A stretch of DNA of 64,000 nt from Mycobacterium sp. Root265 (GTDB lineage Bacteria > Actinomycetota > Actinomycetes > Mycobacteriales > Mycobacteriaceae), in assembly GCF_001428895.1 (NCBI RefSeq), contig NZ_LMJA01000033.1, positions 93,614 to 157,613 of the forward strand, given 5' to 3'. The notes below the pieces were generated by a model. The model did not search any database, was not told the origin of the DNA, and worked only from the letters and a program-made list of their open reading frames with translations. The translations under genes were made by a program, and so were the position numbers. Below, piece by piece: positions 46,537 through 59,640 of this stretch. The first letter of the stretch is position 1. Every line of letters begins with the position of its first letter.

Positions 46537-46600
46537 ACCGTGGGGAACGCACAGCCCGAGTCGAACCATTCCGGCCGTCGCGGCCCGCCCGGAAATGCAA

Positions 46601-46636
46601 CGACTCCCGGGCGTGGTGCTCGTGCCGCGGGAGTCG
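46601..46636 (-). terminator. Original tRNA-Arg terminator hairpin, now separated from its gene
   Basis: CGACTCCCG and CGGGAGTCG form a nine-bp stem around an 18-base loop, directly beyond the left att repeat. Its diverged copy follows the intact tRNA at 59515-59550. Confidence 0.65.
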
Positions 46637-46649
46637 TGATGGTGCTGGT

Positions 46650-46684
46650 GTGCGCCCGAAGGGATTCGAACCCCTAACCTTCTG
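46650..46684. repeat. attL, 35-bp direct repeat
   Basis: The 35 bases from GTGCGCCCGAAG to CCTTCTG equal 59567-59601 exactly and are the T-arm and acceptor part of tRNA-Arg. After 46684 the sequence departs from the tRNA. Confidence 0.9.
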
Positions 46685-46858
46685 GCGTAGATCCGGCGCC
46701 GATCGTCGTCCGCACTAGTCCACAAAAGTACTGCGGCGCATCCCCTTCCGCGGATATGAGTCCATTGGAGATTGTTGAGAGTCGGGTCGATCCAAACTCG
46801 TTTGTGTCAGGAAAGTGGAGACCAGGGTCGTGCTGAACCGACGCGCCAGACAGAGCAG

Positions 46859-47359
46859 CTAGGTGTTCTTCTTCGGAGAAGGCCAGATGTCGTGTGTTGG
46901 GTCCCACCAGAGAAGCGCGATCAGGTGGCCGAACCGGAGCCCGTACAGCCTGCGTTCGCCCGAGAGTCTGAAACGGCAGATGTTGTCAGATGACTCGTAC
47001 AGCTCGGCCAACCGCTTAGGGGCCGCGACGTTGGGGCAATCGCCAAAGTTGTCGTACTCCTTGTACAAGTTGCGTCCATTTGGGCCAGCCAGTTCATTGA
47101 CCGTCTGGCCCTCAATGTCGCGCAGAAATCGGAAGAAATCGGGTGTGTGCTCAGGAGCCAGATCGAGCAGTGACCAGGGGCCATCTAGGTCGGCGTCGGC
47201 GAACGTGAAACGAATCTTCCGCGCGCCGACGTCGAGGTGTGCCTGACTCTGAGTACGCGGCACCTTCTCCGGCTGGACGTTGTGGGCCGCCTTCGGAGTC
47301 TTGCCGCCTGCGCCCTTGAAAGGGTTGCCCGAGACGCGAGGTTGTTTATCTTTCGCCAC
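46859..47359 (-). CDS. Putative toxin or partner of Panacea antitoxin
   Basis: The 166-residue protein is encoded 34 bases after the DUF4065 gene on the same strand, so likely one operon. GTG 47359 is used, with GGAGGTG ten bases upstream. Residues 1-45 are basic and Pro/Gly-rich; the rest has KIRFTFADADLDGPWSL and a C-terminal pattern RLSGERRLYGLRFGHLIALL followed by WWDP.H. I do not know a characterised homologue. Panacea-type antitoxins neutralise very diverse toxins encoded next to them, and that context is the only reason for the toxin call. A remote RelE-like fold is a guess. Confidence 0.55.
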   Translation of the reverse strand: MAKDKQPRVSGNPFKGAGGKTPKAAHNVQPEKVPRTQSQAHLDVGARKIRFTFADADLDGPWSLLDLAPEHTPDFFRFLRDIEGQTVNELAGPNGRNLYKEYDNFGDCPNVAAPKRLAELYESSDNICRFRLSGERRLYGLRFGHLIALLWWDPTHDIWPSPKKNT

Positions 47360-47393
47360 GACTACAAGGCACCTCCGCAGCGGTGAATCGCCG

Positions 47394-47825
47394 TCAGAGC
47401 GACGAGTAGTACTCGGCCATCGCAGCCTGGGTGATCTCCGTATCGCTCGGCGCGCCTGGTTCCAGCGCGCCCCGCGCTTCACGCCACGGCTGTTCCCGGT
47501 GGGTCAGATCGCTGAGCCACATCGCGGACTTGTCGCCATAAAATTTGACCACGGAGTCAATCGTCGACTTTTCCTCGGCTCGCAGGGCACCGGGGTTGCC
47601 GGGAATGTCGCTCTCAGACACCCGAAACTGCCGGCGATGTTCGCGGTACAGCGCAGGGCAAACAGGCCCGTTCGCCCAAGCTTCAATGCGCCGAGCGAAC
47701 AGTGGCTGTTCCTCCCAGACGAGATGCCAAGCCTGGCTGTAGTACACGAGCTTCTGCAGCTTCATCGCGGTCATCGGGCCCAACTTGGCAAGGATGTACC
47801 GGGCGACGTCGGATACCTCTGCCAT
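47394..47825 (-). CDS. Panacea-domain (DUF4065, SocA-like) antitoxin
   Basis: The 143-residue protein has the DUF4065 hallmark LGPMTAMKLQKLVYYSQAWH, RRIEAWANGPVCPALYRE and KSAMWLSDLTHREQPWREAR. The domain is found in SocA, GepA and hyperpromiscuous antitoxins. AAAGGG precedes the ATG. It comes first, ahead of its partner, and is preceded by the DnaA-box array. In a mobile element such a pair may stabilise the element or abort infection. Confidence 0.85.
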   Translation of the reverse strand: MAEVSDVARYILAKLGPMTAMKLQKLVYYSQAWHLVWEEQPLFARRIEAWANGPVCPALYREHRRQFRVSESDIPGNPGALRAEEKSTIDSVVKFYGDKSAMWLSDLTHREQPWREARGALEPGAPSDTEITQAAMAEYYSSL

Positions 47826-47838
47826 TTCAGACCCTTTC

Positions 47839-47891
47839 TGTGGATAACTTGTGGATAACCTGTGGGCAACTTCCTTGCCCCTTGTGTATAA
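47839..47891. promoter_or_regulatory. DnaA-box-like array on an 11-bp grid
   Basis: TGTGGATAA occurs at 47839 and 47850, TGTGGGCAA at 47861 and TGTGTATAA at 47883, starting 11, 11 and 22 bases apart. TGTGGATAA is the exact complement of the DnaA box TTATCCACA. The array lies just upstream of the Panacea gene and may be a replication origin of the element or a DnaA-controlled promoter. Confidence 0.6.
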
Positions 47892-47991
47892 CGCAACCCT
47901 ATGACAAGTAGTGCCCAGTCTCGCAAACGGTGCGGTGTGTCATCGACCTAGGGCTCGCGGGCTGGGCGAGGGGCGTGGCGGTCAGACCAGA

Positions 47992-48279
47992 TCAGCATCG
48001 CCTGATCACCGTGAGCACATCGTCCTTGCTCTGATCGGGTTCCAGGAGTTTCAGCATGTTTGCGACGTGCCGCTGAGCGGCTTTCTTTGCGTAGTGGACG
48101 TGGCGGAAGTCCCCCAGGTCGTTGGTCCACTCGACGGCCCACGGCTCCGGCCCGAGGTCGTCTGTCGGCTCGATCTCGATGGCCACTATCCGGGTGACGT
48201 GCACACCATCCTGCATACCCAGATCCAGCGCCAACACCTGCAAAGCCGACTTCACCCGCAGCCTCGTTTCAGCATCCAT
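47992..48279 (-). CDS. Hypothetical element protein (95 aa)
   Basis: The 95-residue acidic protein has no domain I recognise. It looks like a soluble alpha/beta protein (IVAIEIEPTDDLG, DFRHVHYAKKAAQRHVANML). No strong ribosome binding site is visible. The opposite strand reads as an Arg/His-rich shadow, so this strand is the better candidate. Confidence 0.45.
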   Translation of the reverse strand: MDAETRLRVKSALQVLALDLGMQDGVHVTRIVAIEIEPTDDLGPEPWAVEWTNDLGDFRHVHYAKKAAQRHVANMLKLLEPDQSKDDVLTVIRRC

Positions 48280-48459
48280 ACCGGATTGGACGCAGCGGAC
48301 AGCCGCTCGGTTCCCACGTCTACGCCCCTCTTTCGACGACGAGCGGGGCGCGCCTGTCCGTCGTTCGGATTAATCGGTCGCGTTTTCGCTCCAGAGGCCA
48401 TCACGGCGCCGATAGGCTCCGTCAGTTCTACGCATCGGGGGAAGGGAAACCATCAATAA

Positions 48460-48897
48460 ATGAAGATTGCTCGCGTCGTCGCCGCACTGCTGGCCATGGT
48501 CCTGCTATCGAGTTGCTCAATGTCCACGTCGTCGTCGACCAAGTCCGACACAGCAGCATCATCTGCCGGCATCGGCACACCCGTCCGCGACGGCAAGTTC
48601 GAATTCACAGTCACAAAGGTGGACACCACGGACCCCAACCTTGTCCGGGTGCACGTCGAAGTCACCAACATCGGGAACGAAGCACAGCACTGGTCCTCCG
48701 GTAACCAGAAGCTACTAGCGGGCGGCAAAGAATTCGAATCCGATATGTGGGAGTCGGAGGGGTCATCCATGGACGAACTCAACCCCGGCTTAAGCGCCTC
48801 GGCCGTACTTGCCTTCAAGGTCCCACCCGGAACCGTGCCCGACGGAATCGAGCTTCACGACTCAATGTTCTCCCAAGGCGCGACTGTAAATCTATGA
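48460..48897 (+). CDS. DUF4352-like lipoprotein
   Basis: The 145-residue protein has a short signal with lipobox LSSC (lipidated C19), a Ser/Thr-rich spacer and an immunoglobulin-like DUF4352 domain with DGKFEFTVTKVDT and VRVHVEVTNIGNEAQHWS. It sits alone on the plus strand within the element. Prophage lipoproteins of this kind can act in superinfection exclusion in other phages; that is inference here. Confidence 0.75.
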   Translation: MKIARVVAALLAMVLLSSCSMSTSSSTKSDTAASSAGIGTPVRDGKFEFTVTKVDTTDPNLVRVHVEVTNIGNEAQHWSSGNQKLLAGGKEFESDMWESEGSSMDELNPGLSASAVLAFKVPPGTVPDGIELHDSMFSQGATVNL

Positions 48898-48920
48898 CGC
48901 GCAGGATGGCGGTCTGACGA

Positions 48921-49364
48921 ATGACAACACCCTGTCAGGTTCAAAGGTGCACGGGCGAAGCTACACACCCGGTCAAGCTCAAAGAACCCGGTGAGGTTGC
49001 CTCCACGTACATATGGACCGAGGTCTGCAGATCTCACTGGGAACAACTCACCCAAAAGTCTCTTGAGTGGGTTCTCGAAATTGGTAAGAACCCCATGAAC
49101 CCTGAATGGCACCAACAAACACTCATTGCCGGAACTGATCTCGCAGCTCTGGACGAGCACGTGATCGTAGAGAGACCGATCCTCAAAGAGCGGCCCGACC
49201 TCTACTCGCGAATCTTCAGCAACAACGACGAAGACGGCCCGCACCTCCAACTACTACTGCGACAACGGGGCGGCCAGACCACACAGAGCCTCACTGTGGT
49301 CGTGCGGCGGTCAGACGTGGACGGGCTGATTCAGCTCCTTACCGACTGGCGCGACTCCCGCTGA
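48921..49364 (+). CDS. Hypothetical element protein with N-terminal Cys/His motif
   Basis: The 147-residue protein has CQVQRC near the start and VCRSHW at 35-40, a possible zinc knuckle, followed by an acidic alpha/beta region ending in LLTDWRDSR. I do not recognise the family. It follows the lipoprotein by 23 bases in the same direction, so they may be co-transcribed. Confidence 0.6.
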   Translation: MTTPCQVQRCTGEATHPVKLKEPGEVASTYIWTEVCRSHWEQLTQKSLEWVLEIGKNPMNPEWHQQTLIAGTDLAALDEHVIVERPILKERPDLYSRIFSNNDEDGPHLQLLLRQRGGQTTQSLTVVVRRSDVDGLIQLLTDWRDSR

Positions 49365-49646
49365 TCCAGGACACCCCACCCCCTCTGCCCCTCCCGGCTA
49401 CCCCCCAGCCGCATCGGCCGGCATTGGCGGGATCTCTCTCCGAAGTTTTTTCCACAAACCCACCCCCTGACAGCGCCGCATACCCGGTGAAGAAAAAAAT
49501 TCTCGGGGAGGGTGATGCCTATGCCGGCCGTGGCGGGTCGGGGGTGGGGTGGAGGGGCCTCTCGGGTGGGCGCGAACACTGAATCAACCGATCGGGCGAC
49601 ATGCATCGAGCCTTCATGACCCAACCTAAAGGCCATACTTCCGACC
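49365..49646. other. Intergenic stretch, homopolymer-rich and G-rich
   Basis: The 282 bases hold a TTTTTT tract, an AAAAAAA tract about 50 bases later, the 15-mer CCTATGCCGGCCGTG (also at 52223-52237) and a G-rich run after it. No convincing gene is visible. Confidence 0.5.
49518..49532. repeat. 15-bp direct repeat with G-rich flank, copy 1
   Basis: CCTATGCCGGCCGTG is repeated at 52223-52237; both copies are followed within a few bases by G-runs. The pair encloses the AlbA_2 and small-terminase-like genes. Confidence 0.5.
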
Positions 49647-49970
49647 ATGACCGAACCGCCCGTACCAAAAGAACCGGACTGGACGGCGCGCTGTTTCGTG
49701 CACGAGCTGGATGAGATTGGGCCTGGCAATCCGTATATGTTGCGCACCTCCGACGACTCAGCGAGCCCGTGGAGGATGGTCAAGTCCCGACACCAGGGCT
49801 GGTGGACGGACGAGCAGACCGGTGTGCAGTTCGAATACACCACCGTGGAGTTCCACCGAGACGAAGCCCAGCGGATCTTGAATCACACGGACGAGATCGA
49901 GGTCGGGTTGATCCGACCGCCTTGGTGGCCGACTGACATGGAACCGCCGGTCTGGCCAAAACGCGAATGA
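49647..49970 (+). CDS. Hypothetical element protein (107 aa)
   Basis: The 107-residue protein is acidic, Trp/Pro-rich (WWTDEQTGVQFEYT, IRPPWWPTDMEPPVWP) and of unknown family. CATACT lies seven bases before the ATG. The AlbA_2 gene follows after 22 bases on the same strand, so they probably form a two-gene unit. Confidence 0.6.
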   Translation: MTEPPVPKEPDWTARCFVHELDEIGPGNPYMLRTSDDSASPWRMVKSRHQGWWTDEQTGVQFEYTTVEFHRDEAQRILNHTDEIEVGLIRPPWWPTDMEPPVWPKRE

Positions 49971-49992
49971 AAGCCCCGAGAAGAGATGCGCG

Positions 49993-51576
49993 ATGACTGA
50001 TGATCCGGCCGAGGAACCCGTCTCCGCCGAAACGCCGGCCGATCAAGCGTTCGTTGACGGCAGGACTGACTACGAAAAGCTCGTCGAGCTGCTCGCATTC
50101 CCGGAAGGAACGCACCTCGACTTCAAAGCCGAACTGGACTTGGGTTCGACCGAATCGAAGTTGAAGTTCGCCAAAGACGTCGTGGCGATGTCGAACACGC
50201 CGCCGGGAGGATACCTGTTGATAGGTGTCGACAATGACGGAAAGCTTTGCACCCCAACTGGAACCATTAACCGACCGAGCTTCGACGGCGCCCGCCTAGG
50301 CGATTTGGTGCGCCCGCACATCGAGGGTCGCGTCAACCTGCAAGTCGCTGTTCATGACCACCTCAATCATGAGGTTGTCGTGATCCTGGTCCTCCCCCAC
50401 CACGACGGATTACCTGTGCCGATGAGCAAGGCCGGCAACTATCAAGATCCCGAGAACTCGAAGAAGCAGATCAACATTTTCCGTCAGGGCGACGTACCGG
50501 TCCGAGAAGGTCCCGCAAACGTCCCTCTACGGCATGCACATTGGAGGCAGATCCTCTCCGTCTACAGCCGCCAGGTCCGAGCTGAAGGTACAGAACTGGC
50601 GCAAGCCATGCTGCGGGAATTCCTGAACGAACGCGGACAGTCCCGCGTGGAATCGGCCGGCAGTGTAGCGATACCCGTCCCACTGCTTGCCGACATGGAC
50701 GAGCTCACCTTCACGAGCACGATGCAATCGATGCTCAACATGAACGACGACTTGCGCCTACGCCGATTCCTCCAGAAGCTCGCCAAGACATCGCTGAAGC
50801 CCACGGCCAGCGAAGATGTTTTTGAGAACGGGTTAAGTAAGTGGTCAATCTTTTGCGCACAAGCGCTTTTCGGAGGGCGCACCGACCTTGTTGAGGAAGC
50901 CATTGAGGTGCTCAGTGAGCAGTACGCCGACCTCGGGTTCGGTGATGCCGAAACGAGAAAGCGACTCGCGGCCGTAGTCCACATCTACGCGTTGGGTAGC
51001 TCCGCGGTCCGTCAAGCAGACTGGCACGTCGTTCACCAACTAGCGCTGCAACCCGTCCCTTCGAACCCCTACGACCGGCAATACATGTACTCATCTTGGA
51101 TTCGGCACGGACAGGTAGATGCGAGCCGTGGAGCACTTCTGCCCGACCGGGGTGGATATCTCATATCGGCAGCACGTGACCTGCTGGTCCGGAACCCAGC
51201 GATGAGGCCAGACGTAGACGACGATGAAATTCCACCTGCCGATGAACTCGCGGCAGACGACCTGCTGCTGAACTCATTGGCCGAGTTTGACATTGCGTAC
51301 TGCTTAATCGTCGCCGCCGAAGGAAAACACGAAGGGGGTGGATACCCAATGTCAGCCGTGCTGAACGACCATCGATCGGGCAAGATGGCCGAAAGGATCG
51401 TGAGCAAACCGGAAGTCCGAAGAGCATTGTTCCCTAACTCGGATGACGCCGTGATTGCGCACGCGTTGCAGGAGACATACAGATCCGCAAGCATTGAGGC
51501 TTCCCGCTATGGCATGCACTGGGAAATGCCACGGTCGGTCAGGAAGTTCATCGAAGGCCATCCGACTGCCAATTAG
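49993..51576 (+). CDS. AlbA_2 (Schlafen-type) domain protein
   Basis: The 527-residue protein has an AlbA_2/SLFN domain at about 15-160: EGTHLDFKAELDL (family E.....E/D..EFK pattern), KDVVAMSNTPPGGYLLIGVD and ARLGDLVRPHIEG. The remainder is a large alpha-helical region with no motif I know and no helicase or kinase motif. In bacteria the AlbA_2 domain occurs in regulators, helicases and defence proteins. Its codon use looks less GC-rich than host genes. It could be an anti-phage effector. Confidence 0.78.
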   Translation: MTDDPAEEPVSAETPADQAFVDGRTDYEKLVELLAFPEGTHLDFKAELDLGSTESKLKFAKDVVAMSNTPPGGYLLIGVDNDGKLCTPTGTINRPSFDGARLGDLVRPHIEGRVNLQVAVHDHLNHEVVVILVLPHHDGLPVPMSKAGNYQDPENSKKQINIFRQGDVPVREGPANVPLRHAHWRQILSVYSRQVRAEGTELAQAMLREFLNERGQSRVESAGSVAIPVPLLADMDELTFTSTMQSMLNMNDDLRLRRFLQKLAKTSLKPTASEDVFENGLSKWSIFCAQALFGGRTDLVEEAIEVLSEQYADLGFGDAETRKRLAAVVHIYALGSSAVRQADWHVVHQLALQPVPSNPYDRQYMYSSWIRHGQVDASRGALLPDRGGYLISAARDLLVRNPAMRPDVDDDEIPPADELAADDLLLNSLAEFDIAYCLIVAAEGKHEGGGYPMSAVLNDHRSGKMAERIVSKPEVRRALFPNSDDAVIAHALQETYRSASIEASRYGMHWEMPRSVRKFIEGHPTAN

Positions 51577-51815
51577 GATCCGTCCTCGTAGTCATCCGCC
51601 CACCGAATACCGCGAGCAGCTTCCGGGTCCTCTCGCAACCTCCCGACGTACGCGAAGGCCTCTGCCGGGTCCATCGATTCACGCTCCATCAGCCACCGAC
51701 GTATCTGATTCGGTGTCATGCCCTCCCAGAGCAGGCCCCACTGCTCCAGCCAGCCGTGCGGCCACTGGCACACCCCTTGATCGATGTTCTTCGGCGACTG
51801 AATCTCCCAGGCCAT
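51573..51815 (-). CDS. Hypothetical phage-type protein (80 aa)
   Basis: The 80-residue protein with NIDQGVCQWPHGWLEQWGLLWEGMTP (shown in part) is last in the minus-strand operon. Its start overlaps the upstream stop (TGATG), indicating coupling with the small-terminase-like gene. Family unknown; its N-terminal half looks like a minor phage assembly or head protein partner only by place. Confidence 0.55.
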   Translation of the reverse strand: MAWEIQSPKNIDQGVCQWPHGWLEQWGLLWEGMTPNQIRRWLMERESMDPAEAFAYVGRLREDPEAARGIRWADDYEDGS

Positions 51816-52177
51816 CAGTTCACCGCCTTCACCGCCTTCAGCGCATGCCGGGCGATACCGGCCTTCACGTGGCGGGCTGACTTCGGGCGGCCTACACCGA
51901 ACTCCAAGCGCGACACCAGATCCACCACCTGCTTGTCCAGCGCCCGCGCTTCAGCGGAGAGCTTCACCAGCACTGTCATCCGGGCCTCGCCGGCCCGCTC
52001 GACGTCGTATAGCCCGCGCACATCCTCCGCACGGTCAGCAGTCGCCACCGCACGATCAATGATGTCCAGCTCCGGTGGAGACCACGCCAGCACAGTTCCC
52101 GACATCTCACCCGCTTGGCGAAGGCCCTCGGTTAGCGATGCGCGGAGACGGCTACCCGCGGACGAAGATCCACTCAT
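51815..52177 (-). CDS. Small terminase subunit-like protein
   Basis: The 120-residue protein has a helical layout with WSPPELDIIDRAVATADRAEDV and LSAEARALDKQVVDLVSRLEF, similar to the C-terminal half of phage small terminase subunits such as that of phiRv2. ATG 52177 follows a G-rich site; ATG 52210 is possible. In satellites a small terminase redirects a helper phage's packaging. The call rests on pattern and position only. Confidence 0.5.
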   Translation of the reverse strand: MSGSSSAGSRLRASLTEGLRQAGEMSGTVLAWSPPELDIIDRAVATADRAEDVRGLYDVERAGEARMTVLVKLSAEARALDKQVVDLVSRLEFGVGRPKSARHVKAGIARHALKAVKAVN

Positions 52178-52222
52178 GCCCAACCCCCAGAAAATCCGGT
52201 TGCTGAGCATCCAGTGGCAGGC

Positions 52223-52237
52223 CCTATGCCGGCCGTG
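52223..52237. repeat. 15-bp direct repeat with G-rich flank, copy 2
   Basis: This is the second copy of CCTATGCCGGCCGTG, in the 221-base gap upstream of the small-terminase-like gene. A packaging or recombination site is conceivable but unproven. Confidence 0.5.
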
Positions 52238-52398
52238 TCCGCTGTGAGGGGTGCCATGGGGGGCACGTGGGTGGGGGTGTGCGGCGGCGCTGCGCAGGTA
52301 CTTCTCCGGCGTGGTGAGCCGTCGTGGAAGTCCTTGCCCGGAAAGGAGTGCACTGACAGGAAGTGGGTTTGACGCGTGCCGCCGCTGGCCATGAGGTT

Positions 52399-52566
52399 CT
52401 AGTCGGCCGGGGTGAAGTTGAAGAGGGCGCCGGATCGGAGCGCGTTCAGGAAAGCGAGCTTGTCGGCCGCGGTGAGCGAGTTGACGTACTCATCGAGGCT
52501 GGCGTGGAACATCTCCATGGGGCTCAGGAAACCGGGCAGTGTCGCGAGGGCGGCGGGTCTAGGCAT
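52399..52566 (-). CDS. Small hypothetical element protein (55 aa)
   Basis: The start at 52566 has AAAGGATCG upstream and overlaps the end of the 325-residue gene by eight bases. The peptide contains LDEYVNSLTAADKLAFLNAL and has no recognisable family. Confidence 0.5.
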   Translation of the reverse strand: MPRPAALATLPGFLSPMEMFHASLDEYVNSLTAADKLAFLNALRSGALFNFTPAD

Positions 52567-53536
52567 GGGTGGCGATCCTTTGGTTGGTGGTGGGTGCCGG
52601 GGCTGCAAGGTCGGTGCTCGCGCCGAGTTCGGTCAGTTCGGCGAGACGGTTGTAGAACCACGAGGTGCCCGAGTAGGCGGCGGTGCGGAACATCTCGTCG
52701 GCCAGGGCGTGGCAGGCGGTGAGGGTGGCAGCGTCGGGCAACCATGGCTGGTTGTCGACGACGATCAGTAGCCATTCGCTGGGCCTGTGGGCGTGCGGCC
52801 ATGGGCTGTTGCGCTGCATGTCCTCGGGGTTCAGATCGGTTGCGCCGTGTTGGTTGAGCCACGCTGCGATGTCGTGGTTGTTGCTGCCGTCAGGTGCGGG
52901 TGTGGTCGCTCGGCGGTGCAGCCAGGCCGGTTCGATTTCGAGGAATCGGCGGGTTTGTCCGCACGCGACGGGGATGTGCGTCGGGAGGTGTGTTTCGTGT
53001 TGTCGGCTGACCCATTCGGTGTACTCGCGGTGAATCTCGTCGTAGCGGCCGAGTAGCTCGGTGACGGCCTTCCAGTCGGATGCTGCTTTCGGCCCGCCTG
53101 TGGTGAGTGCCTGCTCGGCGTTGACGGGGTGAGCGACGATCAGCGCCCGGTGCTTGTGAACATCGGTGACGAGGGTGTCGAGTTCGGACCGAAGGATGTC
53201 CAGGGCGGTATCGGATCCGGTGGTGAGCGCGTGGTCGGCGTCGGTGCGGGCCTGCTGCATGACGCGGACTGCGAGTTGGTGGAATTCGGCGCGTGCCCTC
53301 ATGCCGTTCAGGTCGGCCACGTAGGCGTCACAGACGCTGTTGAGGTCGGTAGCGCCGCCGTCGACAGCTTCGGCGACCTTGGCGTAATAGGCGGATTCGA
53401 GGTCTGCGCCGTTACCGAGGTTGTCGAGGCTCTGCAAGGTGAGGGTGCGAAGGCGGCGTTCACGTTCCAGAGCGGTCTGATAGCCGGGGATCTGGGACAG
53501 GATGCGGTCTTTGAGGCCGGTCTGATTCGCCTTCAT
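52559..53536 (-). CDS. Hypothetical element protein, helical N-terminal half (325 aa)
   Basis: The protein starts at ATG 53536, coupled to the gene before by a four-base overlap. Residues 1-170 are mostly alpha-helical and probably coiled coil; the rest is mixed and Trp-rich (EWLLIVVDNQPWLPDAATLT). I do not recognise it. It lies in the early operon where phiRv elements encode poorly characterised proteins. Confidence 0.65.
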   Translation of the reverse strand: MKANQTGLKDRILSQIPGYQTALERERRLRTLTLQSLDNLGNGADLESAYYAKVAEAVDGGATDLNSVCDAYVADLNGMRARAEFHQLAVRVMQQARTDADHALTTGSDTALDILRSELDTLVTDVHKHRALIVAHPVNAEQALTTGGPKAASDWKAVTELLGRYDEIHREYTEWVSRQHETHLPTHIPVACGQTRRFLEIEPAWLHRRATTPAPDGSNNHDIAAWLNQHGATDLNPEDMQRNSPWPHAHRPSEWLLIVVDNQPWLPDAATLTACHALADEMFRTAAYSGTSWFYNRLAELTELGASTDLAAPAPTTNQRIATHA

Positions 53537-53763
53537 GCCTGCACCTCGTAGTCGGTGCGCTGGGCGGTCTGTTCGACTTCGATGGTGCGGCGTCCGTTGT
53601 TCCGGTACAGATCCTGCCCGGATTTGATGCCGGCTCGGGGGTCGGGTTCCGCTGGGGCTCCGGGGGTGGGTTCGCCTACCTCGTTGATGAGTGCGGAGCG
53701 TTCGGCTTCGGGGAGTTCGGCGAGCCACTGCTTGACGACTTGGCGCAGTACGGGGTCTGTCAT
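53533..53763 (-). CDS. Hypothetical element protein (76 aa)
   Basis: The 76-residue acidic protein starts at ATG 53763, which overlaps the HTH gene stop (ATGA). It has an N-terminal helix (VLRQVVKQWLAELPEAERSA) and a Pro/Gly-rich tail. No family is recognised. Confidence 0.6.
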   Translation of the reverse strand: MTDPVLRQVVKQWLAELPEAERSALINEVGEPTPGAPAEPDPRAGIKSGQDLYRNNGRRTIEVEQTAQRTDYEVQA

Positions 53764-54098
53764 GGGTTTCTCCTAGCTGTGGCGTATTCGGTGACGGTGT
53801 CGTGGTTGAAAAGCCAACGGCCGGCGATGAGTTGGCCTTCCAGGTCGGTGTGTAGTCGTCGGACGTGGCGGCTGCTGCATCCGAGGATTACGGCGGTTTG
53901 CTTCGCGTCGATTAAGTTGGGGTTCTGACTCAATGGTGGTGCAGCAGACCCAATCTCATGTCCAGAGGTGGACATGTAGGTGAGTAGGCTTCGCACCCGC
54001 TCCGGGATCGGCTGGCCCGTGCGCTGCCGACGCATCACCATCTCCGCGACACAATCCCGCAGGAGACGAGCCTGATCATCGGAGAACTCGACGGTCAT
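53760..54098 (-). CDS. Helix-turn-helix protein (HTH_17-like)
   Basis: The 112-residue protein has a C-terminal winged-helix/excisionase-type DNA-binding segment: LIDAKQTAVILGCSSRHVRRLHTDL, cut here, then WLFNHDTVTEYA. The N-terminal half has two helices. It lies 20 bases after the ATPase gene. It could regulate the operon or assist replication or excision. Confidence 0.65.
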   Translation of the reverse strand: MTVEFSDDQARLLRDCVAEMVMRRQRTGQPIPERVRSLLTYMSTSGHEIGSAAPPLSQNPNLIDAKQTAVILGCSSRHVRRLHTDLEGQLIAGRWLFNHDTVTEYATARRNP

Positions 54099-54118
54099 TA
54101 CTTACCGTCTTCCGTGGA

Positions 54119-55960
54119 TCACGCGGACACCCCGTCATCGGTGTCTGACGACTTGAGGGTCCAGATGGTTTCGGATCCGCGCCGGGTGGATTCGATGCGC
54201 CCAGATTCGGTGGCAGCGTGCCGTGCTGCGGTCCACGAGTGGCCGTTCGCGCCAGCGGCGGACCGGAAGGCCGTCTTATCCACTTCGGCTCCCAAGGGCA
54301 GAGCGGCCAAGTAGTCGTTCACCCAGTCGTCGGCAGAACGGTATGGCGCCGAACCCTCTCCAGTGATGCTCCACTTGGCGGTGCCCCCGGCGCGGTCAAT
54401 GACGACGATGTCGGGGTTGGCGGACGCGGCACCACGGAGCTGTTGACGGGTGTACCCCTGGGCCTGACCCGCTTGATACACCAGCAGCGACATCGCGGTC
54501 GTTTCCCCGGCTGCCCGAAGGTCGGCGATGTGGGCGTCGAACCACTTCTGGCAGGACACCTTCGCTTGACCCTTAGTTGTTTGCTGGCGTCGGTGTTTGG
54601 CGGTACAGAAGTCGCACAGACCGGTGTCGCGTCGGGTAGGGGCGCGACGGCAGTCCGGGCACAGTGTGGAGGTGGCGGCACCTTGTGCACCGGAGGGAAG
54701 CGGCACATCCGGCACAAGCGGCACAACTTCGTGTAACACCTGCTCAGGGGCATTAAATGCACGTGCCGCTTGTGTGCCGGATGTGCCGCTTAACGATGTA
54801 TCCGGCACAGTCCGCAACGCGCCGACCTGCAATGTGTCGGCTGTGCCGCTTGTGCCGCTTACAGATGGGGTAAGCCAGTGATCCCATGCTTGACGTAGTC
54901 CCGTGGGGCCGTGCACGTCGTACCCCTTGGACGTTGCGATACCCAATCTGATGCTCTTGGACTTCACTCCGTAGCGGTTCAGTTCCTTTGCTAGACGTCG
55001 TTGGTCAAGCGGTTTGCCCCACAGGTCACGCCACTCAGATTCGGCGTCGGCGGTCAGCTTGGCGATGATGTCCGACGACCACATGGCATCTACGTTCTCG
55101 CCCTCCAGCAACAGTTGGATGTCGCGCAGCAGGCGCTGCCCGATGGACAGCTTCTCGTCATCCGCTGCGGAGTCCACGACGAAGAACGTGCACGCCTCTC
55201 GGGAACGCCGCGCCCAGTCCGGGCCTGCCAGATCCGCTATCGCAATGAGCGGTTCCCAAATCTCTGCGGAGCGGTCTGTGACGCCGCTGGGCAGTGTGGG
55301 GCGCGCCGACGCAAGGCGTTCTTCATGTTCCTTGGTCCATGCGTCGAGCTGCTCGCGGATGGGAGCGGCTTCGGCCAGGGCGGCGCGCTCCCGGAAGTCG
55401 GCTACCTTCTGGTCGGGTCGTCGGCGTCGCATGTGGATGGTGATGCCTCGGGTCTTGATGGTGTCGGGCATCTTCCCGGCCAGCCCGGCGAGCGCGACGG
55501 GTGCGTGGACGGGGAATTCTCTGACGCGCATGTTCTTGGCGTCGCCTTCGCAGCGGTCGACGGTGGCGCCCTTGCGGTACCCGGCGTTAAACAACGCGCG
55601 GAGGTCTTCGGCCTGCGGGCTGGAGTTCTTGCCGAAGATGGCGTCAGCTTCGTCTTGGAGAACGGTGGGGGGTGGAAGGCCGTCGTCGTCGGCGGCGGCG
55701 ATCCGCCGATACAGGGCGGCGGTGGTGGTGGACAAGGTGAGCTTGGCGGAGCGGCACAGCAGGGCCAGTAACTCCAGAACTCGCGTCTTGCCGCTGCCCG
55801 GTTCGGCGGAGTCCAGGATCAGGCGCGGCGTCACATAGAAAGCGTTGACGACCCAGGTGTGTAGAACCCAGAGTGCGATGACGGTGCTGTGGTGTGGCGA
55901 CTGGAAGGCCAAGTACTTGTTGACCATCCGGTCGACTTCGTTGAGCAGGTCGGTAGTCAC
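54119..55960 (-). CDS. DUF3631 ATPase, probable element replication protein
   Basis: The 613-residue protein has a P-loop AEPGSGKT at 52-59, Walker B-like VLQDEAD near 97-103, and a DUF3631 region at about 270-370 (GQRLLRDIQLLLEG to YDVHGPTGLRQAWDHWL). A four-cysteine zinc ribbon CPDC...CDFC follows near 445-465 and a winged-helix-like C-terminus. DUF3631 proteins are the replicative helicase or primase-like genes of mycobacterial prophages and phiRv elements. The GTG start overlaps the DUF2742 stop (GTGA). Confidence 0.8.
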   Translation of the reverse strand: MTTDLLNEVDRMVNKYLAFQSPHHSTVIALWVLHTWVVNAFYVTPRLILDSAEPGSGKTRVLELLALLCRSAKLTLSTTTAALYRRIAAADDDGLPPPTVLQDEADAIFGKNSSPQAEDLRALFNAGYRKGATVDRCEGDAKNMRVREFPVHAPVALAGLAGKMPDTIKTRGITIHMRRRRPDQKVADFRERAALAEAAPIREQLDAWTKEHEERLASARPTLPSGVTDRSAEIWEPLIAIADLAGPDWARRSREACTFFVVDSAADDEKLSIGQRLLRDIQLLLEGENVDAMWSSDIIAKLTADAESEWRDLWGKPLDQRRLAKELNRYGVKSKSIRLGIATSKGYDVHGPTGLRQAWDHWLTPSVSGTSGTADTLQVGALRTVPDTSLSGTSGTQAARAFNAPEQVLHEVVPLVPDVPLPSGAQGAATSTLCPDCRRAPTRRDTGLCDFCTAKHRRQQTTKGQAKVSCQKWFDAHIADLRAAGETTAMSLLVYQAGQAQGYTRQQLRGAASANPDIVVIDRAGGTAKWSITGEGSAPYRSADDWVNDYLAALPLGAEVDKTAFRSAAGANGHSWTAARHAATESGRIESTRRGSETIWTLKSSDTDDGVSA

Positions 55961-56328
55961 GCGACCCCCTTTCGTCGTTCGATGTATGTGGGGCCGCTGC
56001 GCCCACGGAGGCGGTTAGCTTGGGTGGACCAGTCGGTTGCTTCGGCGATGGCGCGGGAGGCGTCGGCACGATGTTCTTGATCTACGTCGTGCAGGAGTGC
56101 TTCGCGGATGCCTCCGAGGATCAGGGAGAGCAACTTGGTGGCGTCGTCGTCGGACATCGAGCACCATGCCGGGGTGCCGGGGATAACGAGGTCATTGGAG
56201 AGCAGGTCGATTCCGCGGCTTGACGCCCAACGTTGTGCGAACTGGTACACCGAGAACCACGACACCTGGCACGACGAGGGGTAGCCCCCGGCGTCGCGGC
56301 CGGGGGCTACCTCGTTGTTGTCGTTCAC
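55957..56328 (-). CDS. DUF2742 protein (phiRv-type)
   Basis: The 123-residue protein has QVSWFSVYQFAQRW, VIPGTPAWCSM and ATDWSTQANRLRGR, the marks of DUF2742 seen in phiRv1/phiRv2 and mycobacteriophages, always just ahead of the replication gene. GTG 56328 overlaps the upstream stop. The function is unknown, but it is a good marker for this element type. Confidence 0.8.
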   Translation of the reverse strand: MNDNNEVAPGRDAGGYPSSCQVSWFSVYQFAQRWASSRGIDLLSNDLVIPGTPAWCSMSDDDATKLLSLILGGIREALLHDVDQEHRADASRAIAEATDWSTQANRLRGRSGPTYIERRKGVA

Positions 56329-56600
56329 AGCCGCCGCGCCGTGAACGTGTCGGAGAAGCTGGGGAACCGGGTGTCGCAGTCCTCGCAGTAGGTGCGGCCG
56401 ATATTGTCCCGATGCCATTCCCAGTAGTGATGCCCGCAGACGGTCCCCCGGTAGCAGCCATGGAGATTCACATCCCAGTTTGCCGGCCGTCTGCACGGCT
56501 TGTGGTTGGGCAAGTCGGCATACCAATCGCACGGCACGCGGTCTCCCCAATGGGCGACGAGATCGCCGAACTGCATATCGGTTTCGGTGCCCCTACTCAT
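56325..56600 (-). CDS. Cys-rich small element protein, possible zinc finger
   Basis: The 91-residue protein has cysteine/histidine pairs (CDWY, CRRPANW, CYRGTVCGHHYW, YCEDC) that could bind zinc. It starts at ATG 56600 and overlaps both neighbours (8 bases and GTGA). Family not recognised. Confidence 0.65.
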   Translation of the reverse strand: MSRGTETDMQFGDLVAHWGDRVPCDWYADLPNHKPCRRPANWDVNLHGCYRGTVCGHHYWEWHRDNIGRTYCEDCDTRFPSFSDTFTARRL

Positions 56601-56814
56601 CAGCGGACCGCCCGCCGTCAAGCGCGGACCGGAGCTGGTCAAGGTCAGCCAAGACGAAGCGCGCCCGGTCAAGGATCTCTTCAGCGCGAGCTCGGCGTGC
56701 CCCGTCGAGATGTGCAGCGGCAGAGTCGATCAAGCAGCAGACCGTGTCTGCGTGGCCTCGTGCACCGTCGACATCCCAGCGGGCCGCGTAGGTGCGGTCA
56801 ACGGCGGCGGTCAC
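56593..56814 (-). CDS. Hypothetical element protein (73 aa)
   Basis: The 73-residue protein is nearly all helical (AHLDGARRARAEEILDRARF) and starts with GTG 56814, overlapping the previous stop (GTGA). No family is recognised. Confidence 0.6.
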   Translation of the reverse strand: MTAAVDRTYAARWDVDGARGHADTVCCLIDSAAAHLDGARRARAEEILDRARFVLADLDQLRSALDGGRSADE

Positions 56815-57314
56815 TTTTCACCACCAACCATGTCGACCGCGGCGAGGATCACGTTGGCGAAGTCACGCGCCTCGTCCAGCGTGAGGGTGATCCCCAGCGA
56901 GTTCCACTTCTCATCTAGGTAGCGCGTCATGGTGATGCCGACGCCCGCCCAGCCGTCGCCGATGAGTCGTCCGCGAACCCGGAATCCGCAAGGGAGTAGG
57001 CACTCGCCGATCGCTTCGCCGCCCATGCGGTTCGCCGGAACGTGTGCGGTGGTGCTGTTGAATGTGGTCCAGCCGACTGACTTACCGATTTCGTCGCAGT
57101 CGGGGTCAGCCCAGGCGGGCCGCGGGATCGGAATTATCTTCTCTGCGTCGCCGCCGTGGTCGATCGCGATATCTCTGCCAGACAGTTCTTCCCAACGCGC
57201 GAGGACCGGGTCAGGCGGGTCGAGTTCGACCGGTGTGAGTTCGGCCGGGGACACCTCGTCGAGGTCGACAGGGGGGGTGATGTTCGTGTTGCGTTTTGTC
57301 GTGCGAGTAGCCAT
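56811..57314 (-). CDS. Hypothetical element protein (167 aa)
   Basis: The 167-residue protein has a basic N-terminus, an acidic Pro-rich linker and a mixed region (WTTFNSTTAHVPANRMGGEA, GFRVRGRLIGDGWAGVGITM) ending TLDEARDFANVILAAVDMV. I do not know it. It is the first longer gene of the early operon. Confidence 0.62.
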   Translation of the reverse strand: MATRTTKRNTNITPPVDLDEVSPAELTPVELDPPDPVLARWEELSGRDIAIDHGGDAEKIIPIPRPAWADPDCDEIGKSVGWTTFNSTTAHVPANRMGGEAIGECLLPCGFRVRGRLIGDGWAGVGITMTRYLDEKWNSLGITLTLDEARDFANVILAAVDMVGGEK

Positions 57315-57350
57315 GATGTGGTTACCTAACTTCTCTCTGCTGAGGGTTGG

Positions 57351-57470
57351 TTACGAAGCCTCGGAGGCGGCAACCTCCGGGGCTTCACTCTTTCCGGGAC
57401 GTAGATCTTCGGTTCTGTCGTTCTCGATCAAGCCCAGGTCGGCGTGATCCTGCTGTGGGAGCGTCCGCAT
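57351..57470 (-). CDS. Possible 39-aa peptide coupled to Xis-like gene
   Basis: This frame begins at ATG 57470-57468, overlapping the Xis stop by one base (TGATG), and ends at TAA. It encodes MRTLPQQDHADLGLIENDRT and 19 more residues, mostly acidic. Only the coupling supports it. Confidence 0.4.
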   Translation of the reverse strand: MRTLPQQDHADLGLIENDRTEDLRPGKSEAPEVAASEAS

Positions 57471-57646
57471 CAGGCCGTCGCTCGTTCCAGCCGCGACAAG
57501 TACTCGTCAATTTGGCGATCTGTCGAGAAGCGCTTTCGCCCGATCGTGACCGAACCCAGTTCTCCCGAGGCCCACAGGTTGAAGACAGTGGACCGGCCGA
57601 TGCCGAGCCTGGCGCCCGTGGCGATGTGGTCGTTGTTCCTGTTCAT
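57470..57646 (-). CDS. AlpA/Xis-like excisionase (58 aa)
   Basis: The 58-residue protein has the winged-HTH pattern GARLGIGRSTVFNLWASGEL followed by VTIGRKRF and a C-terminal helix. The pattern fits AlpA/MerR-type excisionases like those of phiRv1/phiRv2. GGAGGAG lies five bases before the ATG. It is first in the early operon, divergent from the repressor, as expected for excision on induction. Confidence 0.78.
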   Translation of the reverse strand: MNRNNDHIATGARLGIGRSTVFNLWASGELGSVTIGRKRFSTDRQIDEYLSRLERATA

Positions 57647-57672
57647 TACCTCTCCTCCACTTTCCGCTTACG

Positions 57673-57745
57673 TGTATCGACGTTCAGGAGAATCCACTTG
57701 CGTCGATGCACGCAAGAATAGGCACATCTCGTGTATCGACGCAAG
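57673..57745. promoter_or_regulatory. Repressor operator cluster, TGYATCGACG repeats
   Basis: TGTATCGACG occurs at 57673-57682 and TGTATCGACGCAAG at 57732-57745; CTTGCGTCGATGCA at 57697-57710 is the same motif inverted. The three copies fill the divergent promoter region between xis and the repressor gene. Confidence 0.65.
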
Positions 57746-57752
57746 AGTGGGC

Positions 57753-57758
57753 TACTCT
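57753..57758 (+). promoter_or_regulatory. -10 box TACTCT for leaderless repressor mRNA
   Basis: TACTCT lies seven bases before the ATG at 57766, and operator copy 3 overlaps where the -35 would be, so the repressor probably controls itself. Confidence 0.5.
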
Positions 57759-57765
57759 GCGTGTC

Positions 57766-58335
57766 ATGGCGTCACGCCCGAAGCGGGAAAACTGGTCAGA
57801 CTCCCCTCCCCAGAACTGGGCCGAGCGGGAGGCATACCGGTTCTCGCGAGTCGTCCAAGAGCTGCGGCGGGGAAGGTCCGCGCAATGGCTTTCAGATGAG
57901 ACTCACAAGCTTGGACACCGGGTGTCGCGGGCGGTCATCTCAGATCTCGAAACCGGCCGGCGACGGTACGTCACCACCAGTGAGTTGCTAGTCCTGGCTG
58001 CAGCGCTGGAAACATCGCCTGTGACACTTATGTACCCCGGCCCATACCAAGATCAGGTGGAGATTCTTCCTGGATTGGACGGCACGCAATTTGATGCAGC
58101 TCAGTGGTTTTCGGGAGACGGGACACGGGGGTTAACGCCAGACCCATCGACTTCTCGAGGTCGCTGGCTCTTCCACGTACAGCAGCTGCGTCAGTGGCGT
58201 CGACTTGAAACCCTCGAAGACCGACGGAGGTTTTTGGCATCCGAAGTGGATGCCGACAGAGATCAGATTGCGTTCTACGACGAGCAGATTCGCGACCTGA
58301 AGACCGAACTGCAGCACGGAGGCGAGGATGCCTAG
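57766..58335 (+). CDS. XRE-type immunity repressor
   Basis: The 189-residue protein has a helix-turn-helix domain at about 25-92 (SAQWLSDETHKLGHRVSRAV, then ISDLETGRRRY) and a C-terminal coiled coil at 145-185 for dimerisation. No peptidase domain is present, so induction is not by RecA self-cleavage of the LexA type. ATG 57766 is used. It overlaps the integrase gene by eight bases. It is the likely lysogeny repressor of the element. Confidence 0.82.
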   Translation: MASRPKRENWSDSPPQNWAEREAYRFSRVVQELRRGRSAQWLSDETHKLGHRVSRAVISDLETGRRRYVTTSELLVLAAALETSPVTLMYPGPYQDQVEILPGLDGTQFDAAQWFSGDGTRGLTPDPSTSRGRWLFHVQQLRQWRRLETLEDRRRFLASEVDADRDQIAFYDEQIRDLKTELQHGGEDA

Positions 58336-59497
58336 ACAGAGGATGACTCCTGGCGAGCACGGCCGAATCGCAGAACGCTTACACCGCGGAAAGTTTTACG
58401 CCACAACATATGTGCGCGACACCGACGGAAAGCGGCGTCGAGTCGAGCGATCGAGCGTTAAGAGCGCCGAGGACGCCCGCCGGCTGCTGCAGCGTCACCT
58501 CAAGGACCGTCGAGCGCCGATTGCTCGGCAGGAGGTCACCGACAAAACGACGCTGTCGGAGCTGTTTGAGGTATGGGTTCTGGCGAAGGCCAATGAGGAT
58601 GGAGTGTCGCCTCAGACGGTGGATCAGTACCGCCAGGTATGGGCGAAGCACGGAGCGACCCAATTGGGGGCGCTGCGTATCCGAGAGGTGGAGGCCCCAC
58701 AGGCCCAGCGGCACTTGCAGGACATGGGCGCCACGACTCAGGCGAAGAGGATGCGGATGATCCTCGTTGGCATGTACTCGACGGCCGTGCGGTTTGGTGT
58801 TGTCGCAGTGAATCCGATCAGGGAGGCGCAGCCCTCGAAGGCCGTGCCCAAGGTGGTTACCCGCGAGATCCAGCAAGGCGACCTTGACCGCGTCCGGGCT
58901 GCCGCGCGGGCGTACGCGGAGCGCTCTGGGCCAGGACCGCAGCCGGGACGACTCCTGCCGGCGTTCGTCGATCTGTTGATCGCCACCGGAGGCCGGCCGA
59001 ATGAGATCTTGGCGCTGAGGTGGTCCGACTGCGATCTCGGCGCAGATCCACCGACGATCACGATTCGCGGCACCCTGATCGACCACGGGCGTATCGCAGG
59101 GCGTCCGCTACACCGGCAGGACAAGCGCAAGGGTGACGCCCCGGAACACACGGTGCTGCTCCCCCGCGTCGGTGTCGAGGCACTCGAAGCTCTGAAGAAT
59201 CATGCAGTCGGCGACGGCCCCGTCTTCTCCAACCGTGACGGCGGGTGGATGTCACTGGCCAACATGCGGCGGTCCCTCCGGGCGGCCCTACCGGAGGACC
59301 TACGGGCGGCGATCACACCGCACACATTCCGGCGCGCAGTCGCCACGGTCGTGCGGAACAAGATGGGTGCGGAGATGGCGCAGCAGCAGCTGTCGCACGC
59401 AAAGCTGGCGACCACGGAGAAGCATTATCTTCAGCGTCACACTCACGGCCCGGACGTGCGCCACGTGTTGGACGAGTACGCCAGCGTCCGGGAATGA
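58328..59497 (+). CDS. int: Tyrosine recombinase integrase
   Basis: The 389-residue integrase has an N-terminal arm-type DNA-binding domain, a SAM-like core-binding domain (about 75-160) and a catalytic domain with R223 (GGRPNE), H332 and R335 (HTFRR), H357 (LSHAK) and Y367 as nucleophile. It directs integration at tRNA-Arg(ACG), whose att repeat begins 70 bases downstream. It is translationally coupled to the repressor. Confidence 0.93.
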   Translation: MPRQRMTPGEHGRIAERLHRGKFYATTYVRDTDGKRRRVERSSVKSAEDARRLLQRHLKDRRAPIARQEVTDKTTLSELFEVWVLAKANEDGVSPQTVDQYRQVWAKHGATQLGALRIREVEAPQAQRHLQDMGATTQAKRMRMILVGMYSTAVRFGVVAVNPIREAQPSKAVPKVVTREIQQGDLDRVRAAARAYAERSGPGPQPGRLLPAFVDLLIATGGRPNEILALRWSDCDLGADPPTITIRGTLIDHGRIAGRPLHRQDKRKGDAPEHTVLLPRVGVEALEALKNHAVGDGPVFSNRDGGWMSLANMRRSLRAALPEDLRAAITPHTFRRAVATVVRNKMGAEMAQQQLSHAKLATTEKHYLQRHTHGPDVRHVLDEYASVRE

Positions 59498-59514
59498 ATG
59501 TAGCGGGAAAGTAG

Positions 59515-59550
59515 CGGCTCCCGGGCGTGTTGCTTATGCCGCGGGAGCCG
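59515..59550. terminator. Element-borne copy of tRNA-Arg terminator
   Basis: CGGCTCCCG/CGGGAGCCG form a nine-bp stem. It differs from 46601-46636 at five of 36 positions, two of which form a compensating A-T to G-C change in the stem. It serves the intact tRNA and probably int. Confidence 0.7.
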
Positions 59551-59566
59551 TTCGTGCTGCTAGATG

Positions 59567-59601
59567 GTGCGCCCGAAGGGATTCGAACCCCTAACCTTCT
59601 G
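59567..59601. repeat. attR, 35-bp direct repeat in tRNA-Arg
   Basis: The repeat equals 46650-46684 and covers the 3' half of the tRNA, so integration restores a full gene with an element-supplied 3' end. Confidence 0.9.
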
Positions 59602-59640
59602 ATCCGTAGTCAGATGCTCTATCCGTTGAGCTACGGGCGC
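59568..59640 (-). tRNA. tRNA-Arg(ACG), element integration site
   Basis: The 73-base minus-strand gene has the acceptor GCGCCCG/CGGGCGC, TCTGA/TCAGA anticodon stem, anticodon loop CTACGGA (anticodon ACG) and T-loop GGTTCGAATCC. A34 would be deaminated to inosine by TadA. Confidence 0.96.

Follow-up and report, generated by a model that had tools for sequence, protein, structure and literature searches.

Results and discussion

A capsid-free element in tRNA-Arg(ACG)

A 64,000-nucleotide stretch of the genome of Mycobacterium sp. Root265 (the window) holds an integrated element of 12,952 bp (46650-59601) that is probably a phage satellite of the phage-inducible chromosomal island (PICI) type, inserted in a tRNA-Arg(ACG) gene, free of capsid genes and packaged by a helper phage. 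Its exact 35-bp direct repeats, together with the tRNA match, confirm the boundaries given in an original prediction made from the sequence of the window. The G+C content is 62.2% within the element and 67.5-68.0% outside. An integrase gene and a repressor-like gene lie on the plus strand, adjoining the tRNA gene. On the minus strand, an operon runs leftwards through the genes for a DUF2742 protein, a DUF3631 protein and an excisionase-like protein, followed by g11, g9 and a small gene; the cargo (46859-51576) lies beyond g9, a gene resembling those of small terminase subunits (TerS; Table 1).

No capsid, protease, portal or large terminase (TerL) gene was recognised in the element with Pfam, PHROGs or capsid models made from its relatives, bearing out the predicted lack of capsid and protease genes. 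None of 20 window open reading frames (ORFs) matched a PHROGs "head and packaging" family at E ≤ 0.1, and HK97-type capsid models built from relatives, the first of which included some wrong-strand ORFs, gave no window match at E < 10. Comparison of capsid models with window genes of at least 140 residues by hhalign reached at most 0.5% probability, and TerL family PF03354 was not found in the bacterium's own genome. Two PHROGs matches were rejected as unconvincing, of the short ORF 56325-56672 to a tail fibre family (2e-5), which we do not believe, and of ORF 52559-53542 to a spanin family (0.052). The element therefore combines an integrase and attachment (att) repeats with no recognised virion structural gene, as a PICI does. 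It has no recognised genes for the capsid and head proteins of capsid-forming PICIs (cf-PICIs), and no recognised virion-gene remnants, which, like broken frames, would mark a decayed prophage.

A conserved non-coding block

A conserved non-coding block of about 150 bp, lying between g11, or a gene of another family, cc9, and the next gene, emerged when the window was compared with another element in this bacterium's genome (L124; L, G and C numbers denote our loci, genomes and contigs). A sequence-only model, R1, was built from 8 aligned copies after iterated searches. Over 67 stretches, R1 recovered the 8 training copies and those of L054, L118, L051 and L032 at E < 0.001. Over 298 same-genus genomes, matches at E ≤ 0.05 occurred in 119, and at E < 1e-3, a cut chosen after the list was seen, there were 50 matches in 41 genomes, our own included. 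We scanned the surroundings of each of the 50, one of which was partly masked. Within 700 bp 5' of the block, the gene on the same strand encodes a capsid protein in 21 cases (17+4), g11 in 9 and cc9 in 8, with none typed in 12. Among the 42 copies that were not used for training, 30 have a typed slot gene and 36 a slot gene or a TerS, g9 or HNH gene. The six untyped blocks that have neither comprise L156, after a portal gene (phrog_104), L147/L189, behind DUF3631 and g13 (the excisionase-like gene), and four with nothing recognised. In a wider sample of 401 family genomes, overlapping the first, the block was present at E ≤ 1e-4 in 12 genomes and 3 of 31 genera.

In genome G285 the order is DUF3631-block-HNH-TerS-TerL (TerS phrog_1459, 3.6e-6; TerL phrog_9, 3e-52), and the order HNH-TerS-TerL is typical of the packaging genes of cohesive-end (cos) phages. 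Because the block recurs 3' of the capsid slot, is followed by packaging genes in some elements and has this order in G285, we read it as a putative packaging (cos) site, judging by position and company. Inverted G+C-rich arms are present in the four copies checked, most of them 74-107 nt apart; folded as single-stranded DNA, the window copy is little better than shuffles (z -1.2). In most elements the block is at a distance from the DUF3631 gene. At E < 1e-3 in the earlier stretches, 20 column-shuffled models had no match and the true model had 10; this is a weak form of support, as 7 of the 10 are training copies and 3 are not, and L087 and L109, a single place, make one training copy count twice. 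Of 7 stretches picked out by a pattern scan of IMG/VR, R1 confirmed a single one (L164, E 3e-15), on a contig with cc9 and HNH. At this sensitivity the block looks satellite-specific. A match near the genome end of phage Alsfro was rejected as due to composition; the block model found nothing there. The G285 locus itself (L190/L191, G285:C34) appears to be a compact element of integrase, short DUF3631, block, HNH, TerS and TerL, without a match to the capsid models within the stretch read.

g11 or cc9 in the capsid slot of some elements

The original prediction placed cargo (toxin-antitoxin, lipoprotein and AlbA_2 genes) where related elements have their capsid genes; the position is instead occupied by g11. 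The g11 protein aligns with proteins of L122, L032, L067 and L068 at 21-28% identity, with 13 invariant columns. When a profile was built from nine relatives, leaving out the window and L122, it retrieved window g11 first (E 2e-8) and L122 at 0.0014. Profile-profile comparison gave 94%, and no more than 1% for any of 13 other families; the reverse profile, from the window and L122 only, recovered 1 of the 9. The kinship, though remote, is real. The model used for typing included the window and L122. The cc9 proteins belong to a family of their own; kinship with the relatives of g11, with capsid families or with scaffold families was not detected. No g11 homologue was found in phage records, and no credible match among solved structures (best E 0.036, a coiled coil).

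Slot content is accompanied by a difference in size. Among typed, repeat-bounded elements, the 15 with a capsid gene measure 8.2-10.8 kb and the 8 with g11 or cc9 12.5-15.8 kb (exact Mann-Whitney p 4e-6). L209, of 13,015 bp, was found after this test, and the capsid class includes L035, a 9,560-bp contig whose 27-bp repeated ends may be integration repeats or an assembly-closed circle or overlap. When stretches of 14-20 kb around 17 block matches of the g11/cc9 type were searched for three capsid families, there was one match, in L195, about 13 kb downstream and past another integrase; L198 ends soon after the block. Before the block of L147 and L143 there is a helical-looking protein of about 260-350 residues, without a PHROGs match for the one scanned, which is perhaps a third slot family.

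g9 resembles small terminases

The resemblance of g9 to small terminases, also claimed in the original prediction, appears real by profile-profile comparison. The g9 profile matched the TerS family of the relatives with 81.5% probability (E 1.1e-5), and a scripted repeat over 23 families gave 78% for TerS (85% reversed) and at most 1.5% for the other 22. Three of the five members of this TerS family were scanned, and these match phrog_1496 (E 1e-16 to 1e-19). The g9 family itself (18 sequences) had no TerS match in PHROGs at E ≤ 0.01, one of the 18 matching an unnamed family; at a looser limit, one of three g9 relatives matched TerS family phrog_1496 at 0.12. Relatives of g9 occur at E ≤ 0.001 in 41 of the 298 genomes, our own included, several of them directly 3' of a capsid gene, and none was found in phage records or IMG/VR. 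Among solved structures, the g9 profile came closest to an aldolase (E 0.0046), a match along helical stretches that we do not believe.

Variants of g9 in L145, L153 and L172 carry, by eye, an N-terminal cysteine-rich, zinc-finger-like part with weak PHROGs matches to an HNH family, possibly a DNA-binding half that window g9 lacks. In L105 and L107, ORFs of 1052 and 1682 residues without a convincing Pfam match lie between cc9/HNH and g9.

Same-site relatives and exchange of the slot

DUF3631 relatives are present in 77 of the 298 genomes (own included) at E ≤ 1e-10, some over the C-terminal third only. We fetched 40 stretches around DUF3631 relatives and 20 around relatives of g9 (19) and g11 (1); gene clustering covered 69 stretches, including some duplicates. 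Many relatives carry an HK97-type capsid gene (PF05065, searched in overlapping sets of 40 and 38 genomes) and others none nearby. Elements were typed by positive markers, because a locus without PF05065 may still encode a capsid, as L072 illustrates. This locus, taken at first sight as capsid-free, carries a capsid and protease of another kind (phrog_1650, phrog_3894); genes of these clusters are also present in L038, and both loci were moved to the capsid class.

At the tRNA-Arg(ACG) core itself, all three slot types occur. L209 (genome G207; 13,015 bp) is of the cc9 type, L122 (G169; 12,456 bp) and L193 (distal end not found) are of the g11 type, and L210 (tRNA side outside the fetched stretch) and L127 (from IMG/VR; distal end not found) carry capsid genes. 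The elements of L209 and L122 are bounded by the same 35 bases, present twice; they share with the window element the site and core, a related integrase, a DUF3631-type gene, the lack of a capsid match and a size of 12.5-13.0 kb. L209 differs in having cc9 instead of g11, and L122 in having a remote g11 relative, an HNH gene and no detectable block. Judged on sequence, the window element is one of a recurrent capsid-free class and not a one-off wreck, because g11 and cc9 recur in the slot, typed sizes differ with slot content and g11, cc9 and capsid versions exist at the same core. The original prediction held that the arrangement would be new for mycobacteria; it is not confined to this element, as it recurs in other mycobacteria and in L124 of the same genome.

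The nearest integrase to that of the window is from L209 (78% identity, at the same site), followed by that of capsid-carrying L210. In an integrase tree of 36 rows, made with the best integrase per stretch, a few of which may belong to a neighbouring element, slot labels change 14 times, and 62 of 200 shuffles were as low. The DUF3631 tree (30 rows) is somewhat clustered, with 8 changes, a count as low being reached by 2 of 200 shuffles; its rows nearest the window are a cc9 element and a capsid-carrying one, the latter with 41% of columns filled. Since slot labels are scattered over the integrase tree and the DUF3631 neighbours are mixed, slot and backbone appear to recombine. This could mean that the elements form one exchange network, in which a capsid cassette or a substitute occupies the slot preceding a cos site that is shared and specific to satellites, and swaps switch between making and stealing a capsid; we consider this a possibility, leaning slightly against it. 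If it were true, the capsid cassette would provide a self-made small head for a genome of about 8-11 kb, and at least two unrelated substitutes (g11, cc9) would adapt a helper head to one of about 12-16 kb. The exchange in the slot makes it directly testable, within one genus, how satellites pass from self-made to stolen capsids or back. The block also offers a sequence handle for listing such satellites and for seeking their DNA ends in phage particles.

The same genome contains two further loci of note. L124 (G000:C26:145000-164900) is a second capsid-free element, of 14,741 bp, in tRNA-Ala(TGC); it carries cc9, DUF3631, the block and early genes in common with the window element. L123 (G000:C25:195000-214900) is a prophage-like region with a capsid gene, tail-like genes by eye and a 589-residue protein with weak similarity to a relative's TerL; it is a possible resident helper.

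Comparison with known satellites

The published systems are compared here from excerpts of the papers cited. Mycobacterial candidate PICIs, including phiRv1 and phiRv2, were defined in one survey by an integrase and a major capsid gene (PMC10654092). Like the window element, they are small and integrated, some in tRNA genes, with an integrase and in part replication or packaging genes, and are called PICI-like; they have a capsid gene, whereas the window element has none, with g11 in the slot (PMC10654092). As only integrase plus capsid was counted, the capsid-free class falls outside that survey by construction. The excerpt also mentions earlier reports of PICIs in Mycobacterium and cites SatelliteFinder (PMC10654092); capsid-free ones may already stand unremarked in such lists. 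Small actinobacterial elements under 15 kb have been suggested as satellites, experimental validation lagging behind (PMC10023795), and Streptomyces satellites with their own capsid genes are described (PMC10690885). Among the matches listed in the open-licence literature, no title or start of an abstract concerned capsid-free mycobacterial satellites.

The DUF2742 and DUF3631 early genes, both in the window element, are kin to those of capsid-carrying elements, and we take them to be phiRv features.

The cf-PICIs encode capsid, protease, portal, connectors, both terminase subunits and HNH (PMC10690885). Their TerS, on the packaging side, has a TerS-like counterpart in the window element, and HNH is shared with some of its relatives; they differ in their full head and packaging set, of which the window element has only a TerS-like gene (PMC10690885). 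Classical PICIs and the staphylococcal pathogenicity islands (SaPIs) are alike in outline, with no structural genes and with integrase, repressor-like, replication-like and TerS-like genes. The window element differs in lacking a recognised capsid-redirecting gene, and the likeness is one of gene outline. The phage-inducible chromosomal minimalist islands (PICMIs) of Vibrionaceae are likewise small, capsid-free satellites, in another host and integration site and, in the excerpted text, without capsid-remodelling genes (PMC10803314). The earlier interpretation of the element as a satellite is supported in part and is extended here.

Proposed life cycle and alternatives

In the proposed cycle, a helper phage would relieve repression of the element, the integrase and an excisionase-like protein would excise it and the DUF3631 ATPase would replicate it. 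The g9 protein would bind the block and recruit the large terminase of the helper, after which the DNA could enter helper-made heads and receive helper tails. The g11 protein may help adapt helper heads to a genome of 13 kb; this is the least certain step, suggested by the position of its gene in the slot. The block and the TerS-like gene strengthen the satellite interpretation. A structural-gene-free, PICI-like satellite is the best reading, in line with the satellite originally predicted, while use of the helper's capsid and a head-adapting role for g11 are presumed from gene content and position.

Several results weigh against this interpretation. Only 18 of the 50 matches are followed within 1.5 kb 3' by a recognised TerS, g9 or HNH gene; 12 of these belong to the 38 whose slot gene is typed, and 6 to the 12 untyped. 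Four matches have no recognised satellite gene nearby. Conversely, the block is undetectable in many g9 elements and in L122, the g11 relative at the same site. Three block copies searched against 50,697 phage records gave no convincing match, and so no helper sharing the site. The TerS-likeness of g9 depends on one profile comparison, and DNA-level searches for the window element returned partial matches only. Finally, the size test left out eight repeat-bounded untyped elements of 5.6-12.4 kb: L036 (7,967 bp), L053 (10,628), L069 (10,918), L071 (10,740), L074 (12,350), L117 (5,597), L203 (5,858) and L205 (11,242). Some capsid-free elements may be small, or these may have unrecognised capsids; the size gap is accordingly limited to the typed g11/cc9 class.

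It is quite unlikely that the element is a decayed capsid-forming, phiRv-like one that has lost its capsid cassette, become immobile and merely retained its cargo. Capsid-carrying stretches with related integrases do exist at the same att core (L210, L127), and a homologous set with intact capsid genes at this site was what the original prediction had named as a sign of simple decay; about 200 residues of the DUF3631 protein are 85% identical to that of capsid-carrying L054. However, the scanned ORFs are open, the att repeats are exact and, among typed elements, those with g11 or cc9 exceed the capsid-carrying ones in size. Decay from an element like L210 or L127 is not indicated, because the g11 gene is intact, related genes occupy this position in other species and the models revealed no capsid remnant. 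An ordinary integrated island, conjugative or immobile and independent of phages, would account for cargo genes without a clear phage role, and a publication about integrating conjugative elements of actinobacteria mentions DUF3631 (PMC3218068, excerpt). The TerS-like gene, the cos-like block, the HNH, TerS and TerL genes of relatives and the absence of conjugation genes among the 20 window ORFs (Pfam) make this very improbable.

Within the satellite interpretation, the block might be a replication origin or a regulatory site, the element using the helper's packaging site or generalised packaging. The inverted arms would also suit an origin, and a recognised packaging gene follows in only the 18 cases given above; but the block is distant from the DUF3631 gene in most elements, has a capsid gene on its 5' side in 21 of the 50 and directly precedes HNH-TerS-TerL in G285, though it also directly follows DUF3631 there, so that we regard a role other than packaging as unlikely. 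Somewhat doubtful, too, is that concatemers are packaged in full-size helper heads, g11 being unrelated to head size. PICMIs do so (PMC10803314, excerpt), and g11 resembles no solved structure credibly by sequence; the exchange of capsid, g11 and cc9 in one slot nevertheless suggests a head-related role, and a cos site would permit packaging of monomers too.

Other genes and flanking features

The predicted integrase and DUF2742 and DUF3631 early genes are present according to Pfam and PHROGs; the predicted repressor has weak helix-turn-helix (HTH) matches. Homologues of the repressor-like protein adjoin integrases in related elements, and the 58-residue excisionase candidate is, by eye, like a small ORF beside the L128 and L054 repressors. 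A DNA match at 69% (56637-57477) overlaps the 73-residue early gene. The replication role of the DUF3631 protein is presumed, since phmmer found no relative among solved structures. The g13 family occurs in 17 of the 69 clustered stretches, some of them duplicates.

Table 1. Features of the window element (positions in the window).
Feature	Position	Strand	Basis or remark
attL	46650..46684	.	35-bp core, duplicated 3' end of tRNA-Arg(ACG)
Cargo: protein adjoining Panacea gene, candidate toxin partner	46859..47482	-	Start uncertain
Cargo: Panacea (SocA-like) antitoxin domain	47394..47825	-	PF13274 (SocA_Panacea) E 8e-19; phrog_1281 1e-36
Cargo: DUF4352 lipoprotein-like	48460..48897	+	PF11611 E 3e-15
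Cargo: SLFN/AlbA_2 protein	49993..51576	+	PF04326 (SLFN_AlbA_2) E 1.5e-10; no PADLOC match
80-aa protein	51573..51815	-	Relative adjoins g9 in L103
g9, TerS-like protein	51815..52177	-	Profile-profile comparison
Conserved non-coding block, putative cos/packaging site	52254..52402	-	Conservation
g11, helical-looking, capsid slot	52559..53536	-	ATG at 53536
HTH_17/excisionase-like protein (g13)	53760..54098	-	PHROGs 1.9e-4
DUF3631 protein, probable replication ATPase	54119..55960	-	PF12307 E 1.5e-49
DUF2742 protein	55957..56550	-	PF10888 E 1.5e-14; domain residues 93-192; start uncertain
Early gene, 73 aa	56593..56814	-	Closely resembles a 66-aa ORF of L124, by eye
Early gene, 167 aa	56811..57314	-	54% to counterpart in L124, same genome
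58-aa HTH-like ORF, excisionase candidate	57470..57646	-	Putative function
Repressor-like HTH protein	57706..58335	+	Weak HTH_31/HTH_3 matches
Tyrosine integrase, 389 aa	58328..59497	+	PF00589 E 2e-12; phrog_1 1.4e-45
attR core	59567..59601	.	Inside intact tRNA-Arg(ACG)
tRNA-Arg (ACG), integration target	59565..59640	-	Right repeat is its 3' part

In the cargo, the protein adjoining the Panacea gene has no convincing match in Pfam, PHROGs or defence families; its position makes it a possible toxin partner. Ten window proteins gave no match to defence families.

Imperfect hairpin-forming repeats (46590-46637 and 59504-59551; 81%) flank both att cores, a pair absent from the other folded elements at the tRNA-Arg(ACG) core; apparently, a hairpin resembling the one beyond the integration site is carried by the window element itself. 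In IMG/VR, the same attachment core is found in a capsid-carrying stretch (L126) and in one with a window-like repressor and integrase (L128), and the genes beside them look, by eye, like what we take to be ESX/toxin genes of mycobacterial prophages.

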